DNA of 40,138 bases, taken from a virus. Positions 6,410 through 39,734 of this stretch are shown piece by piece (the first letter of the stretch is position 1; each line of letters opens with the position of its first letter). The stretch is taken from positions 1 through 40,138 of the IMG/VR virus record IMGVR_UViG_3300042323_000856. The stretch is one strand, 5' to 3'. The position numbers and the translations under genes were made by a program. Below the pieces are notes generated by a model. It saw only the letters and a list, made by a program, of their open reading frames with translations, made no database searches and was not told the origin of the DNA.

Positions 6410-7558
6410 ATGAATGAACATAACCCTATTTATGGTATAAATCCAAATCCGCCATCATCTAATGACACATTTGATTTTGTGATGCCAGACATTCCTGAAC
6501 CACCGCAAAATGAAAAGCCAGAGCCTAAAGATAGAGATTCTGTAGGTTTTAAATTTGGCTTTATTGGTGCTGGTCAAGGTGGCGGAAAATTGGCTGAAAC
6601 ATTTTCTCAAATTGGTTATGCTCGCGTTGGTGTTATTAATACTGCCGATCAAGATCTTGCCACCATCAACGTGCCAAATAAAATGAAATTTGGTGAACAG
6701 CAAGGAGCAGGAAAAAACAGAGAATTCGCTAAACAGGCTTTTTTGAATAGTAAAGAAGATGTCGTTGATTTTATTAAGTCTTCTATCGGTACTGATATAG
6801 ATCGTATCTTTGTAACAGTTGGTGCTGGCGGTGGAACTGGTGCTGGTGTTTGTTCTGAGCTTGTTAAAACGGTTAAAGAATATCAGAATACAATTAAAGC
6901 TGGTTCTCCTTATGTTGGTTTGATTCTAGCTCTGCCAAAGCTTTCTGAAGGTAAAAAGGTAAGCCAAAACGCTTATGAAACATTAAAAGAAGCTTGTGAA
7001 CTAGTAGAACAAAAGATTGTTTCTCCTCTTATCATTCTTGATAACGAAAGAATCAATTCTCTTTATCCAAAATTATCTGTAAATAAATTCTGGCAAGTAG
7101 CAAATGCAAATATTTGTTCTTTGTTCCATTTGTTTAACAACATAATTACTAAAAATAGTCAGTATAGCACATTTGACACAAATGATTTCAGAACTGTTCT
7201 CGATTCTGGTATTATGGTTTTTGGTGCAGCTAACATTACTAATGTTAGTAGTGAATCCGAGATCAGCAAAGCAGTACGCGAAAATCTTAAGAGAAATGTT
7301 CTTTGCGGCGAGCTTGATCTTTCTACTGGTAGCACCGCTGCTGCTGTGGCTATTTGCGATGAAAAGACATTAGATAGTATTCCTCAAGAATACTTAGACA
7401 ACGCTTTCAATCAATTGAATAGAACTCTTAAAACCAACAGTACAGTTCATCAAGGCGTTTATAAAGGAGTTAAAGAAGGTCTTTCTATATTTACCGCTAT
7501 CGGAGGCATTGCAACTCCTGTTGATAAACTAGACGCTCTTCTAAAAGCTAGTCAATAA
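6410..7558 (+). CDS. Tubulin/FtsZ-family GTPase
   Basis: This 382-residue protein has the FtsZ/tubulin core. The first glycine-rich loop is FGFIGAGQGGGK near 49-60, the signature GAGGGTGAG is at 138-146, and a T7-loop equivalent runs through D256 and D259 (FDTNDFRTVL), matching the catalytic aspartates of FtsZ NVDFADVRTVM. Polymerisation-coupled GTP hydrolysis is therefore likely. The first 45 residues are proline-rich and disordered-looking, an unusual tail for this family. Large phages use tubulin-like filaments to position replication compartments or virions; that role is inferred here and not shown. The start has no Shine-Dalgarno sequence. A GTGTAA motif lies at 6366-6371 at the end of the Clp gene, 38 nt upstream. 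Confidence 0.85.
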   Translation: MNEHNPIYGINPNPPSSNDTFDFVMPDIPEPPQNEKPEPKDRDSVGFKFGFIGAGQGGGKLAETFSQIGYARVGVINTADQDLATINVPNKMKFGEQQGAGKNREFAKQAFLNSKEDVVDFIKSSIGTDIDRIFVTVGAGGGTGAGVCSELVKTVKEYQNTIKAGSPYVGLILALPKLSEGKKVSQNAYETLKEACELVEQKIVSPLIILDNERINSLYPKLSVNKFWQVANANICSLFHLFNNIITKNSQYSTFDTNDFRTVLDSGIMVFGAANITNVSSESEISKAVRENLKRNVLCGELDLSTGSTAAAVAICDEKTLDSIPQEYLDNAFNQLNRTLKTNSTVHQGVYKGVKEGLSIFTAIGGIATPVDKLDALLKASQ

Positions 7559-19072: not shown

Positions 19073-19666
19073 ATGTCAAGTTATTCTAATCAAATAACCA
19101 CTTTACTTTTAGATTCTTCGTTTATGCCTTACACCTTTTTAACGGGTAGGGCTACATTCTTGCATTTAATAAAAAATAATATCAAATGCTTTGATGCGAG
19201 CGAAAATCTAATAGATAACAATCTGCAATGGATTTCTAATCAGGGAATTGATTTTCACGAAGATCAACCTTTTTTAACTTCTAAAGATAGAATTTGGTTT
19301 TTACCCACTACCGCTGTTATCAAAGCTTCTTTTTATTCAAAAAGAAAAAAAATGCCTCGCACATTGAGTCTTCAAAAATTATGCATTATTTTTGATTATA
19401 CTTGTCAAATTTGTTACGATCAATTTGATAAAAAAGATATGACTGTGGAACATATCTTTCCACGCTCCAAAGGTGGAACTAAAGAAATAGAAAACATCAC
19501 GCTTACCTGTGCGCGGTGTAATCAAATAAAGAAAGACTTATATCCATTTTTAGACAATAAGAATCGCGATATAAAATCTGTTCCAATGCCTATTCCCGTA
19601 CTCCCTAACAAGCCAGTAAAAAATAGAGAAGAATGGCAAAAGTATTTTATTTATAAAAAAATATGA
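19073..19666 (+). CDS. HNH endonuclease
   Basis: This 197-residue protein has a C-terminal HNH nuclease domain (about 108-165). It has the zinc-binding CQICYDQF, the catalytic strand TVEHIFPRSKGGTKEIEN, and the second Cys pair in CARCNQIKKD. The form is the McrA/restriction-type HNH rather than the intron type. The N-terminal 100 residues are unrecognised and may choose the DNA target. It is the first gene of a leaderless-looking transcript that continues through 21166. It may be a homing enzyme or a packaging or host-DNA nuclease. Confidence 0.85.
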   Translation: MSSYSNQITTLLLDSSFMPYTFLTGRATFLHLIKNNIKCFDASENLIDNNLQWISNQGIDFHEDQPFLTSKDRIWFLPTTAVIKASFYSKRKKMPRTLSLQKLCIIFDYTCQICYDQFDKKDMTVEHIFPRSKGGTKEIENITLTCARCNQIKKDLYPFLDNKNRDIKSVPMPIPVLPNKPVKNREEWQKYFIYKKI

Positions 19667-23686: not shown

Positions 23687-23971
23687 ATGACTCATAAATT
23701 TGCAGTAATTGTAGATAAAAAATTCTACAATCAGATACAAAACAATTCTGATTTCTATTTGCGCGTTTTAGTATTAGACGTTATACGAGCGTTAGTACCC
23801 AATGAAGAAAGCGTAGATAAATATAGCAGTGATATATTTTATAAATGCGCCAAAAGTATTTCCAATGAAGTAAGAATGTTTGAAGATGAAAAATCAGTTA
23901 TTTTTTATCTTGAATTAAGTAGTGCATACCTTGATGATTTTTTTGAAAAACCCCTTGACGATTTCGAATAA
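23687..23971 (+). CDS. Hypothetical protein
   Basis: This acidic, helical 94-residue protein (FYLRVLVLDVIRALVPNEES, CAKSISNEVRMFEDEKSVIF) has no recognised domain. It begins 4 nt after tRNA-Gly, so it is probably made from the same primary transcript after tRNA processing. Confidence 0.6.
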   Translation: MTHKFAVIVDKKFYNQIQNNSDFYLRVLVLDVIRALVPNEESVDKYSSDIFYKCAKSISNEVRMFEDEKSVIFYLELSSAYLDDFFEKPLDDFE

Positions 23972-23982
23972 ATCAATAAATA
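23955..23982 (+). promoter_or_regulatory. Possible promoter of the structured RNA and HNH gene
   Basis: TTGACG (23955-23960), a 16-nt spacer and TAAATA (23977-23982). The -10 is weaker than in the other promoters, and an alternative TATTAT-like element lies at 23986-23991. Transcription would start just before the structured RNA at 24003. Confidence 0.4.
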
Positions 23983-24002
23983 GTGTATTATATAGTATAT
24001 CC

Positions 24003-24112
24003 TACACTACCCGAGTAATCGGAGGATGAAAAATCGATTTTTAGCGGCAATCGCTAAATAGGTGCGTTTACGCATCGTCCCTTTTTCGAGTAGTGTCGGA
24101 AAGGGGATTTTT
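24003..24112 (+). ncRNA. Structured 5' RNA (riboswitch-like) before an HNH gene
   Basis: Many helices can be drawn by eye. ACACTAC (24004-24010) pairs with GTAGTGT (24090-24096). CCGA-GTAA-TCGG is a hairpin at 24011-24022. GGATG (24024-24028) pairs with CGTCC (24076-24080) and encloses hairpins at 24029-24042, 24042-24056 (TAGCG/CGCTA) and 24061-24076 (GGTGCG/CGCATC). A 10-bp hairpin (24079-24088 with 24097-24106) holds GGGG, the likely ribosome site 6 nt before the ATG at 24113. Its loop carries the 3' strand of the first helix, and it competes with the GGATG helix for CC at 24079-24080, so two states seem possible. No known class was recognised. Confidence 0.6.
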
Positions 24113-24751
24113 ATGAAAATATGTAAAATATGTAACACTACAGAAGATTTAATAGGATTTAGAAAAGACAGAAAAATCTGCAATGATTGTTTAAAGAAAC
24201 AAAAAATACAATTTTATCTTTCAAATCACAAAGAAAGCAGAGAAAAACAAAAAGAATATAGAGAATTAAACAGAGATAAGATCAATGCTCAAAAGAGAGA
24301 GCATTATCAATTAAATAAAGAGCGATTAATAAAAAATTCTTCTGATTATAAAAAGAATAATAGAAAGAGATATAACGACTTAAAGATCAATAGAAAAAAG
24401 AATGATCCATTGTATAAATTAAGAATTACTGTTAGTGAAAGAATAAGACAAGCTTTAAAATATCATCTAGCAGGTATATACAAAAAGAAAGATTCTACTA
24501 TAGAATTATTAGGTTGTAGTATTGATGAATTAAAAAATCATTTACAAAATCAATTCAAAGAAGGCATGACTTGGCAAAATCACGGTGAATGGCATATTGA
24601 TCATATAATTCCATGCGCGGCTTTTGACCTATCAAATAAAGAAGACTGTTTAAAATGTTTTAATTATAAAAATTTACAACCACTTTGGGCGCATGAAAAT
24701 CTTTCGAAATCCGACAAAATACCCATTGACAGGCTTCAAGAAATCGCCTAA
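24113..24751 (+). CDS. HNH homing-type endonuclease
   Basis: This 212-residue protein has an N-terminal zinc-finger-like pair (CKICNTTEDL with C4 and C7, then ICNDC), a long basic helical region (about 30-110), and a C-terminal HNH domain with WHIDHIIPCAAFDL and FNYKNLQPLWAHENLSKSDK. That last block is typical of free-standing phage HNH endonucleases. Start 24113 is preferred to an earlier in-frame GTG inside the RNA, because GGGG lies 6 nt upstream and CKICN begins the domain. It is probably mobile and selfish. Its expression is likely controlled by the structured RNA. The rIIA promoter lies in its last codons. Confidence 0.85.
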   Translation: MKICKICNTTEDLIGFRKDRKICNDCLKKQKIQFYLSNHKESREKQKEYRELNRDKINAQKREHYQLNKERLIKNSSDYKKNNRKRYNDLKINRKKNDPLYKLRITVSERIRQALKYHLAGIYKKKDSTIELLGCSIDELKNHLQNQFKEGMTWQNHGEWHIDHIIPCAAFDLSNKEDCLKCFNYKNLQPLWAHENLSKSDKIPIDRLQEIA

Positions 24752-24754
24752 AGT
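24726..24754 (+). promoter_or_regulatory. rIIA promoter
   Basis: TTGACA (24726-24731), a 17-nt spacer and TAAAGT (24749-24754), with ATG at 24763 8 nt downstream. It overlaps the end of the HNH gene and predicts a leaderless rIIA mRNA. Confidence 0.75.
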
Positions 24755-24762
24755 CTTCGCGT

Positions 24763-26955
24763 ATGAAACTGAATATTGCTGACAGGATCGTTGCGACTTC
24801 GCACGATTTCCCCACCGTAAACTGTACGATTGATCCAGAAGATATGAGGTACATTTCCTCTCTTCTGCGAAACAATTATTCGAATACAATTTTAGCTACC
24901 ATTCGTGAGCCTTATGCGAATGCAGTTGATGCTAATAAAGAAAATGGATTATCGCCAGAACTTATTGAAGTCAAATCCCCAACCTCTCTTGATCAGACTT
25001 TTTCTGTTCGTGATTTTGGTCCCGGTTTGAGTCGCGATCAAATTTTTAATCTGTATAGTAAGTTTGGTAAGTCTACAAAGCGCGATTCTAATACAAACAT
25101 TGGAGGATTTGGAGTCGGACGCTTCGCGCCTCTTTCTTACAAAGATAGTTTTACTGTTACTTCTTATTATAATGGTATTCAATCTATCTATAGCCTTTAT
25201 ATTTCTGAAGAGAATGACACTAAGATTGATGAAGTATTCTTTGGGCATACTACTGAATGTAATGGTATTTGTATTTCTGTCGGAGTCGCGAATGCTGATA
25301 TAAATAAATTCAACGAAGAGATCGCTTCATTCTTTAGTAATTTTGAGGTTCTTCCTACGTTCCTCAATATTCAAAATCACATTGTCAAGCCTGAGATTGT
25401 CGCTTCTGGTACTGATTGGCAGATTCGTAAATCTGATAACAGTCATAATTATTATTCAGTTGGCGAGCAGGGTGTTGTAATGGGCGGCATTTATTATCCT
25501 ATCAATCCTGAACTGGTTGATTTTAAGAGTGACGATGGTTATGCATGGACTAAGTATCTTAATAAGCTTGTTTTTGTTGCTGATATTGGATCTGTTTCGC
25601 TGCATCACTCACGCGAAACACTTGAGTATAATAAGACTACCAAGACTTATTTGAAGTCTCGTTATCAAGCTTTCTGTAAAGAGTTTACGGATTCGATTAA
25701 GAATAAGATCGCGCAATTTGATTGTTTGCGTGATGCTATGAGTTGTTATTTTGATATTAAACATACTTTTCCTCGAAACGTTTTTGACCAACTTCAAGAT
25801 CAAGATGTTTTTGTATTTAAAGGGTATAAAATTGATACTTATACTTTTAATCGTGGCAGTTACGAAGAAAACGGTAGGGCTACTAGAATTCCTGTTTATA
25901 CTAAAACTTATACTCTATCTGGTGATCGCGTAATTATTAGTAAATGCTATACTGTTCCTAATGATAAAAATTATTATATTGTATTTAATGATTTACCAAA
26001 TAATACTAAAGTTGTTCCTCGCCTTTATGAATTAGCTAAAAAATATAAAACCATAATCGTTATCGCTCACGATGAATCAATCGTTAGTTCCGCTACTATT
26101 AATGGCGTTGATAAGTTCAAAGAAGTTAATCGATTTGATCTTGTTAAGTCTGGTTATTGTAATCTAAGTGAATTGACTGCTGTTAAGCTTCCTTCTAATA
26201 AGAAAGCTTCTACCATTCCATATACGCCTAGTTATTTTTACAAGGTTGATGGCCGCATTCTTCATTCTTCAAATTCTTATTCTCAAGAGATAAACGATAT
26301 CTCTATTGTTAAACTTTATTTTCCTATTTCTAATGGTAAACCTATCAATCAGTATTCGCATTTTTATTATGAAAAGAATAAACTCAATACTCATTTTTTA
26401 AACGATATAACCAAATTGTTTAAGATCAGTGTTTATGGAGTATCAAATAATATAGTCATAACTAGTAAATTTAAAAGCCGCACTGACTTCATTGACTTTA
26501 ATAAGTATATCCAAGATAAATGGGACAATTGTTCTTATGAAGTTAAATCGTTGATTCTTGAATATCTTTCTTGCAAGACTGATGACGCTTATAATATTAT
26601 GACTTTCGTGTCTATGGTTGGAGACGTTGTTACTTATCAGAAATACGATTACAAGGTAAAATTTTGTTCAGAACTTCTTAAGAAAGCGGACGCGCTTATA
26701 TTTGCCGAATTTATTAAAACTTGGCGGCATCCGTTGGAAGCTCTTAAAATTAATATGTCCCACGACAACGAAACTCCAGTTTCTATTTGTGGAAAATATT
26801 TAAAAGAAGCTGCCGAAGAAATTTATAAAAATTATCCAATGCTTAAAATTCATTCCGATCTTTACCATACTGATCGCAATAAAAATGAAGCTGAATTTAA
26901 GGCATACATTTCCTTCATCAACCAGCAGAATTCGGTTGACTTTTCGAAAATTTGA
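24763..26955 (+). CDS. rIIA: RIIA-like GHKL ATPase domain protein
   Basis: This 730-residue protein matches phage T4 RIIA. It has the GHKL N-box ATIREPYANAVDAN (45-58), the G1 box VRDFGPGLS (82-90), then FGKSTKR and the G2 box IGGFGVGRFAPLSYKDSFTV (113-132). VVMGGIYYPI and SLHHSRETLEYN follow, which align with the T4 blocks AIYGGIVYPI and DIAPSREALSL. RII proteins work at the inner membrane and protect infection against exclusion systems such as RexAB in T4; the biochemical role remains open. The rIIB partner follows at once, as in T4. The gene has a strong leaderless promoter. Confidence 0.88.
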   Translation: MKLNIADRIVATSHDFPTVNCTIDPEDMRYISSLLRNNYSNTILATIREPYANAVDANKENGLSPELIEVKSPTSLDQTFSVRDFGPGLSRDQIFNLYSKFGKSTKRDSNTNIGGFGVGRFAPLSYKDSFTVTSYYNGIQSIYSLYISEENDTKIDEVFFGHTTECNGICISVGVANADINKFNEEIASFFSNFEVLPTFLNIQNHIVKPEIVASGTDWQIRKSDNSHNYYSVGEQGVVMGGIYYPINPELVDFKSDDGYAWTKYLNKLVFVADIGSVSLHHSRETLEYNKTTKTYLKSRYQAFCKEFTDSIKNKIAQFDCLRDAMSCYFDIKHTFPRNVFDQLQDQDVFVFKGYKIDTYTFNRGSYEENGRATRIPVYTKTYTLSGDRVIISKCYTVPNDKNYYIVFNDLPNNTKVVPRLYELAKKYKTIIVIAHDESIVSSATINGVDKFKEVNRFDLVKSGYCNLSELTAVKLPSNKKASTIPYTPSYFYKVDGRILHSSNSYSQEINDISIVKLYFPISNGKPINQYSHFYYEKNKLNTHFLNDITKLFKISVYGVSNNIVITSKFKSRTDFIDFNKYIQDKWDNCSYEVKSLILEYLSCKTDDAYNIMTFVSMVGDVVTYQKYDYKVKFCSELLKKADALIFAEFIKTWRHPLEALKINMSHDNETPVSICGKYLKEAAEEIYKNYPMLKIHSDLYHTDRNKNEAEFKAYISFINQQNSVDFSKI

Positions 26956-33597: not shown

Positions 33598-34356
33598 GTG
33601 AACATAAAGAGTCCATTAAATCAAAGCGGAATTTATAAAATAACTAACAAAATAACTCAAAAAATTTATATTGGTAGTTCTAAAAATATTAGAAAAAGAT
33701 GGAAAGCGCATAGAACTCTTTTGAATAGAGAAAAACATTATAATGAACATTTGCTTGCTGCGTATAAAAAATACGGAAAAGAAAATTTTAGTTGGGAAGT
33801 TGTAGAATTTATTGACGTTAATAATCTTCAAGAAAGAGAACAATATTGGATTGATTTTTTTGGAAGTTCTGACAGAAAAAAAGGATATAATTTATGCCCA
33901 GCAGCTTATTCGAATTTAGGACTAAAGCATACAGACGAAAGTCGCCGAAATATGAGTCTAGCTCATTTAGGTCATAAACATACTTCAGAAAGCAAAAAGA
34001 AAATATCAGAATCTCAATATAAAACTGTTTATCAATTTGATTTAAAAGGTAATTTTATAAAAAAATACGATTCTTTATTAGATGCTGAAAATAAAACTGG
34101 AATTCAACACCAAGCTATATCTGGATGCTGTAGAAAAATAACTAAAAGCGCAAAAGGATATTTTTGGTCTTTTGAAAATTTATTTATTGAATACAAAAAG
34201 AATCATTTTACTGAAGCTCCTTGGAGATGGAGGAGCATCAAATGCCCCAAAACCTTAAAGATATGGAAATCAATAAAAGAAGCAGCAAACGAATTAAACT
34301 TGACTATTCATCAAGTTCACTTTAAAATAAAAAAGGGATTATTTAATTATGTATAA
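33598..34356 (+). CDS. GIY-YIG homing endonuclease with NUMOD motifs
   Basis: The 252-residue protein has the GIY-YIG nuclease domain (GIYKITNKITQKIYIGSS, about 11-28, with the catalytic Arg in NIRKRWKAH). NUMOD3 repeats follow (GLKHTDESRRNMS, GHKHTSESKKKIS), and then a NUMOD1/IENR1-like unit (VYQFDLKGNFIKKYDSLLDA) and a helix-turn-helix-like end (IKEAANELNLTIHQV) for DNA binding. It uses a GTG start, supported by the GTGTAA-N8 spacing. It is a free-standing mobile gene inserted between thyX and the next operon. Confidence 0.88.
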   Translation: MNIKSPLNQSGIYKITNKITQKIYIGSSKNIRKRWKAHRTLLNREKHYNEHLLAAYKKYGKENFSWEVVEFIDVNNLQEREQYWIDFFGSSDRKKGYNLCPAAYSNLGLKHTDESRRNMSLAHLGHKHTSESKKKISESQYKTVYQFDLKGNFIKKYDSLLDAENKTGIQHQAISGCCRKITKSAKGYFWSFENLFIEYKKNHFTEAPWRWRSIKCPKTLKIWKSIKEAANELNLTIHQVHFKIKKGLFNYV

Positions 34357-39451: not shown

Positions 39452-39622
39452 ATGAAAAAATGTTTATACTGCAATGAATTTATCGACACTGACAACGACG
39501 ACTATCAAAAAGTCGGTAAAAAGATAGTTTGCATATTTTGCTACGAAGATTATGCAGATGAAATAGACAACAATCTTACAGATGATGATGAAGAAGAAGA
39601 TAATTGTCGCGAAGAAGAATAA
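39452..39622 (+). CDS. Zinc-ribbon mini-protein with acidic tail (56 residues)
   Basis: The protein starts MKKCLYCNEFIDTDNDDYQK, with C4 and C7 and then C28 and C31 (IVCIFCYED), a rubredoxin-like two-knuckle zinc site. The C-terminus is very acidic. It is similar in kind to the mini-protein at 28827. Phage proteins like this often bind host polymerase or nuclease; no target is known here. Confidence 0.7.
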   Translation: MKKCLYCNEFIDTDNDDYQKVGKKIVCIFCYEDYADEIDNNLTDDDEEEDNCREEE

Positions 39623-39625
39623 ATA

Positions 39626-39734
39626 GTGTAATATATATTAGCGCAATATAAACTGTTCAAACTTTAATCTTTTGATTAAAAAACAGCAAGACCCGAAGCG
39701 CATCAAACTTGTGTTTTGACATCGGGTCTTTTTT
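39626..39734 (+). ncRNA. Candidate small RNA with own GTGTAA signal and terminator
   Basis: GTGTAA (39626-39631) is followed after 8 nt by position 39640, where no start codon exists. Two hairpins follow: CTGTT/AACAG (39653-39657, 39682-39686) around TTTAATC/GATTAAA (39663-39669, 39674-39680), then a terminator AAGACCCGA (39688-39696) with TCGGGTCTT (39722-39730) and a T-tract to 39734. A transcript of about 95 nt would result. It could instead be only the terminator of the upstream gene. Confidence 0.45.

Follow-up and report, generated by a model that had tools for sequence, protein, structure and literature searches.

A structured 5' leader predicted to hide the ribosome site of a phage HNH endonuclease gene, and a covarying leader family at related genes

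The window, by which we mean the whole stretch of 40,138 bases analyzed here, is an IMG/VR phage record. An open reading frame encoding a 94-aa protein (23687..23971; + strand, as for all features of the window given below) is followed by a promoter-like box, AATAAATAGTGTATTATATAGTA (23975..23997), a structured leader RNA of 114 nt (23999..24112) and a gene for a 212-aa HNH endonuclease (24113..24751). Downstream lies a homologue of rIIA (24763..26955), identified, like the HNH gene, from its open reading frame and PHROG match. A scan also found a promoter-like sequence of rIIA, TTGACA-17-TAAAGT (24726..24754), which overlaps the end of the HNH gene. The window carries further nuclease genes at 19073-19666 and 33598-34356, an HNH and a GIY-YIG homing endonuclease, and a hairpin with a U run is found upstream of this further HNH gene. 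The protein encoded at 6410-7558 contains a GGGTGAG motif, which we take to recall FtsZ/tubulin.

The best PHROG match of the 212-aa protein is endonuclease VII (1.7e-12). Pfam returned a sub-threshold DUF4428 match only; there was no credible NCBIfam match, and profile searching against PDB sequences found no match. The initial annotation of this DNA had read the protein as HNH only, without RuvC and hence not IscB, and its length and the failure to find RuvC support that reading. F-CphI of cyanophage S-PM2, a free-standing homing endonuclease, carries an Endo VII motif (PMC6083498); the window protein, a phage nuclease with endonuclease VII as best PHROG, is likened to it by label. The words "hairpin" and "secondary structure" are absent from that paper (PMC6083498).

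In three related records (L017, L018 and L020; 70% identity in rIIA), both the RNA and the HNH gene are absent and rIIA starts approximately 30 nt after the 94-aa gene, the end of which matches the empty site in L017. As the three are alike, they probably represent one lineage. Three more (L016, L019 and L021), in which the sequence ends short of the insertion place, were left out of this comparison. The empty-site sequence CCCCTTGACA corresponds to the sequence flanking the insertion on both sides, including the rIIA promoter-like element. In this comparison, the leader RNA and the HNH gene form a joint insertion before rIIA, present in some phages and absent from others. The HNH gene is probably mobile and probably encodes a homing endonuclease.

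The box AATAAATAGTGTATTATATAGTA, a putative promoter, ends directly 5' of the leader RNA. The position of its −10-like TATTAT (23986-23991) would place the transcription start near 23999, at the base of helix P0. The only other copy of AATAAATAGTGTATTATATAGTA in the window, at 39618, precedes a second conserved RNA (39641-39734) composed of two hairpins and a terminator. This RNA is found in five related records, its stems are changed on both sides in G003, and it has no Rfam match. Within the leader (24000-24112), a sigma-70-type scan found no site on the + strand, phage late promoters being checked by eye only; nor was a promoter seen within the hairpin like that of T4, whose transcripts would leave the ribosome site free.

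The region 23985-24130 folds with −44.2 kcal/mol (z −4.33; 1/200 shuffles equally good) and 24002-24100 with z −3.44 (0/200), bearing out the earlier description of a structured RNA. Starting from 23999, the minimum fold (−40.8 kcal/mol) consists of P0, P2, P3, P4 and P5, with pair probabilities mostly between 0.84 and 1.0. P0 (AUCCU/AGGAU; 23999..24027, arms 23999-24003/24023-24027) contains a bulge of 7 nt, ACACUAC (24004-24010), and the hairpin P2 (CCGA-GUAA-UCGG, 24011-24022), which had rightly been called GNRA-type: the loop is GUAA here and GAAA in the related locus L003. Hairpins P3 (24040..24058) and P4 (24061..24076) lie next to each other, both at high probability, and the second helix that was thought to enclose three hairpins is absent from the minimum fold. 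P5 (24077..24108, arms 24077-24089/24096-24108) alone reaches −17.7 kcal/mol, with pair probabilities of 0.85-0.99. The GGGG Shine-Dalgarno site (24103-24106) is buried in its stem, as proposed, the hairpin being 13 bp long with G-U pairs instead of the 10 bp given before. P5 is followed by a U run of only 5 U and is listed as terminator-like by a simple scan. The structure of the leader RNA is real, and the fold of P5 supports the proposal that the leader hides the ribosome site of the HNH gene.

Rfam, searched at gathering and relaxed thresholds, gave nothing credible for the window RNA, the RNA at 39641 or the related leaders described below, in agreement with the earlier failure to match a known riboswitch, group I intron or HEARO/omega-RNA class. 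Several candidates were rejected on these grounds. An IscB/HEARO omega-RNA system does not fit a 212-aa HNH protein lacking RuvC and an RNA without Rfam match; for a group I intron there is likewise no Rfam match, and the empty site is intergenic with no interrupted gene; and no Rfam model of a known riboswitch or ribozyme matches. A small open reading frame in the leader (24026-24061, MKNRFLAAIAK), in frame with the HNH gene via one TAG, was considered as a readthrough fusion and rejected because an extra T in L003 breaks the frame and the GGAGG-ATG gap is zero.

Stable hairpins pairing Shine-Dalgarno sites are described for I-TevI, I-TevII, I-TevIII, segB and mobE in the available part of PMC2988022, where transcripts that start at a late promoter do not contain the full hairpin. 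The window leader resembles them: P5 is stable, and the Shine-Dalgarno site covered by its pairing belongs to a phage endonuclease gene too. Unlike the I-TevI, segB and mobE leaders as far as presented there, it has its sole promoter-like box upstream of the whole structure, and it goes beyond them in having extra hairpins and a predicted loop-to-5' pairing.

This pairing involves the P0 bulge, ACACUAC, which is complementary to GUAGUGU (24090-24096), that is, the P5 loop GUAGUG (24090-24095) plus one base. The initial annotation had noted that the loop of the last hairpin carries this strand, which proved correct, and had assigned it to a 7-bp closing helix, which did not hold: forced as a nested helix, the pairing costs approximately 4.2 kcal/mol (−36.6 versus −40.8), and its ensemble probability in transcripts from 24000 is 0.004-0.03. 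The bulge can instead kiss the P5 loop with P5 staying closed. As to the switch or pseudoknot that had been suggested, the loop-to-5' pairing is plausible and loop-loop covariation is found in related HNH leaders; evidence of switching or of a ligand was not found, and a ligand-driven switch is not supported. We consider it rather unlikely that P5 does no more than hide the RBS, as the usual hairpins of phage homing endonuclease genes do, with a chance loop-bulge match and an incidental P0-P4. Such hairpins are known (available part of PMC2988022), a 6-nt complement to the P5 loop is expected by chance in the window leader with a frequency of 0.077 and a 7-nt loop match in a shuffled leader with one of approximately 1%, and ACACUAC/GUAGUGU shows no covariation in the two versions of the sequence, window and L003. 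On the other hand, P0-P4 fold well too, the leader as a whole hardly differs in L003, and a covarying loop lock exists at related HNH genes.

Close copies of the leader are few. In L002, both the leader and the HNH protein are the same as in the window. In L003 the HNH protein is 76% identical and the near-identical leader differs by two substitutions and one insertion, one of the substitutions (GUAA to GAAA) keeping the GNRA loop. The phage of L003 is 98.7% identical to the window over 23979-24128, versus 82.8% over the aligned genome. Two coding stretches shared by both phages are slightly more alike than the leader (99.3%), and the conserved leader block could therefore be a recombination tract. 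Exact-pattern scans for the window RNA retrieved only L023 (the contig of L002) and L024 (that of L003), four other matches to the first pattern lying in unrelated sequence. With blastn, phages yielded short chance matches only and plasmids none, and a covariance model (R1) of the window and L003 sequences had no match over 85 HNH loci. These searches gave one other sequence version of the exact window RNA, that of L003.

Relatives of the HNH gene were collected by protein search from viral contigs (12 loci, then the best 80 of 573), from genomes (the best 80 of 87) and from 115 phage records, 16 of which were opened. From the resulting 171 loci, 163 leaders (162 loci and the window) were folded, with start codons assigned by a simple rule. 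A z-score below −2 was obtained for 22 of the 163, and in several of the best-folding leaders one hairpin loop is complementary to that of a hairpin further upstream. A loose scan for kissing loops gave 135 matches in 643 kb, mostly chance. When both hairpins had to have loops of 7 nt that are complementary throughout, 1.87 Mb (both strands) yielded 10 matches versus 0 in shuffled sequence. Five of them are HNH leaders, one lies on the opposite strand of L041, and four are elsewhere (L112, L180 on both strands, and L035). The window, in which a 6-nt loop plus one base pairs with a 7-nt bulge, was not found by this strict scan. Loop-to-upstream pairing of at least 7 nt occurs in 11/155 HNH leaders, 13/660 leaders of other genes and 2/465 shuffles. 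Without L003 and the A/B family described below, the comparison is 6/150 HNH leaders versus 13/660 (p 0.14, not significant), so this enrichment leans on the A/B family.

Individual leaders in this set have features of their own. By eye only, the loop-lock design is recognized in Flavobacterium phage elemoA_10-9C (L228; CCGCCAAG/CUUGGCGG). An HNH leader in L144 (1370-1501, +) has a promoter-like TTGACA/TATACT, and the inner part of one of its hairpins is complementary over 12 nt to an upstream hairpin. In Klebsiella phage KpV52 (L241, 450-540, +), a terminator is annotated just 5' of the HNH gene, and its loop can, by eye, pair with sequence beside the ribosome site.

The A/B leaders consist of two hairpins, a 5' one and a terminator-like one, each with a 7-nt loop, and leave the Shine-Dalgarno site free. 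Patterns that specified the outer stems only and left the loops free gave 16 and 14 matches in viral_contigs. Six matches without the layout (L202, L203, L210, L212, L216 and L225) were left out beforehand; the remaining 24 (19 distinct) all have an upstream GGTGTA box and perfect complementarity of the 7-nt loops. Judged by open reading frames, an open HNH gene of the window kind lies 3' of 22 of these 24 leaders, the gene being broken in L199 and reduced to an N-terminal remnant in L220. Among the 11 sequences of type A, 99.3% of the cells are paired and 7 pairs are changed on both sides; for the 8 of type B, the values are 93.5% and 8 pairs. The covariation score was matched in 0/500 shuffles for either type, structures being derived from the same sequences and the shuffles ignoring relatedness. 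A model built from type B without loop pairs recovered 12/12 A-type leaders with E 0.018 or better, and A and B are therefore one family.

Among 77 further loci the same model found only L095, and in 24 whole records it gave 17 matches, 16 of which are followed by an HNH gene (read from the sequence itself after the L259 leader, by coordinates for the others); the remaining one is the remnant site of L220. Across 23 aligned matches, which represent 22 places since L253 and one L199 match coincide, loop complementarity is perfect in 23/23 and involves eight different 7-mers, with 5/7 positions changing on both sides. Perfect cross-pairing between 7-mer types occurs in 0/56 combinations by Watson-Crick pairs and in 2/56 with G-U. 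No Rfam match was obtained for L041, L051, L057 and L106, nor, at a relaxed threshold, for L041 and L095, and a literature search by titles and the beginnings of abstracts found no description of these leaders. Based on these comparisons, A/B is a separate, well-supported RNA family, and it is in these relatives only that selection on the loop lock is shown.

We regard as very improbable a DNA-level element, such as a binding or homing-site feature whose inverted repeats mimic RNA structure. Complementary 7-mers are inverted repeats in DNA as well, and a binding site or coconversion could also account for the conservation, but the A/B stems contain G-U intermediates and the 7-mers lie exactly in hairpin loops.

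The box TGGTGTATWWW also precedes a few other genes and is therefore probably a promoter. In alignments A5 and A6, the linker between the two hairpins has ACAATATAATAATCAG or ACAATnnATTATACCAG as a conserved element, possibly another −10 box or a site for a protein. The L214 row of A6 is offset by one in the loop, and the L030 row of alignment A9, a wrong stretch, was left out. Two leader copies each are carried by four phage records (L199, L209/L220, L198/L254 and L213/L259; G010, G011, G019 and G021), and in all four the loop 7-mers differ between both copies. At L220, which is the same site as L250, the leader is intact and only the N-terminal remnant of the HNH gene is left.

This persistence would suit a small RNA that acts in trans, is terminated at P5 and perhaps binds to HNH as an RNA-guided or RNA-assisted nuclease, with the HNH gene expressed by readthrough. 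The terminator-like P5 and the sharing of the promoter-like box with the second, terminator-bearing RNA fit this as well. We nevertheless judge it improbable: most HNH copies in the same records lack such a leader (approximately 45 HNH matches versus 17 leader matches), a RuvC or guide-binding domain is absent, and the U run comprises only 5 U.

The window leader and the A/B leaders (L197-L226, L253, L254 and L259) share the same kind of HNH gene downstream, a GTGTAT-type or GTGTATTAT box upstream, and a 5' segment whose sequence complements the loop of a long U-run hairpin near the start codon. They differ in that the window RNA has the extra hairpins P2-P4, a 6-nt loop and the ribosome site inside the stem, whereas the A/B leaders have two simple hairpins and a free Shine-Dalgarno site. 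A sequence relation was undetectable with R2, the covariance model of the A/B family, which at E up to 1 found neither the window nor L029. We propose the same design for both and do not claim common descent. According to the available part of PMC2988022, seg43(25) of Aeromonas phage 25 has a stable hairpin beside a ribosome site that is left exposed, and it is thereby closer to the A/B leaders than to the window; loop pairing is not described for it there.

Taken together, the window RNA probably acts in cis as the 5' leader of a free-standing HNH gene, itself probably a homing endonuclease gene, and was inserted jointly with it before rIIA. Transcription would start at the base of P0 from a dedicated promoter, and the RNA would fold at once, with P5 burying the Shine-Dalgarno site; P5 and the U run may also serve as a weak terminator, so that little nuclease would be made. 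Kissing of the P0 bulge with the P5 loop may stabilize the closed state. Release of the block might come from leaky translation, processing of the transcript, a factor acting in trans or an unmapped promoter. On this analysis, the leader most likely limits HNH expression by masking the ribosome site, and some termination may contribute. In favor of this explanation are the fold (z −4.33), the P5 pair probabilities (0.85-0.99), the insertion, the leader identity (98.7% versus 82.8%), the shared box, the complementarity (approximately 1% by chance), the A/B covariation and the precedent. It is weakened by the two sequence versions without covariation, the recombination option, the miss by R2, the comparison of 6/150 with 13/660 and the lack of an inner promoter.

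The window leader is best read as a variant of the RBS-hiding hairpins known for phage homing endonucleases, and the covarying A/B family is the stronger discovery. More tentatively, both might belong to a new leader class in which kissing loops lock the terminator or ribosome-site hairpin of phage HNH genes. The 7-nt pair would then act as an address against cross-pairing of copies, and the window RNA, with its extra hairpins, would be a member that has diverged or has evolved independently. Leader hairpins that quiet phage homing endonucleases are known from a few T4-type genes. The A/B family, with a predicted loop-loop lock before HNH genes of many phages and absent from Rfam, would generalize this in a testable way, as it provides ready-made loop pairs for mutational swaps and a concrete model for the window RNA.
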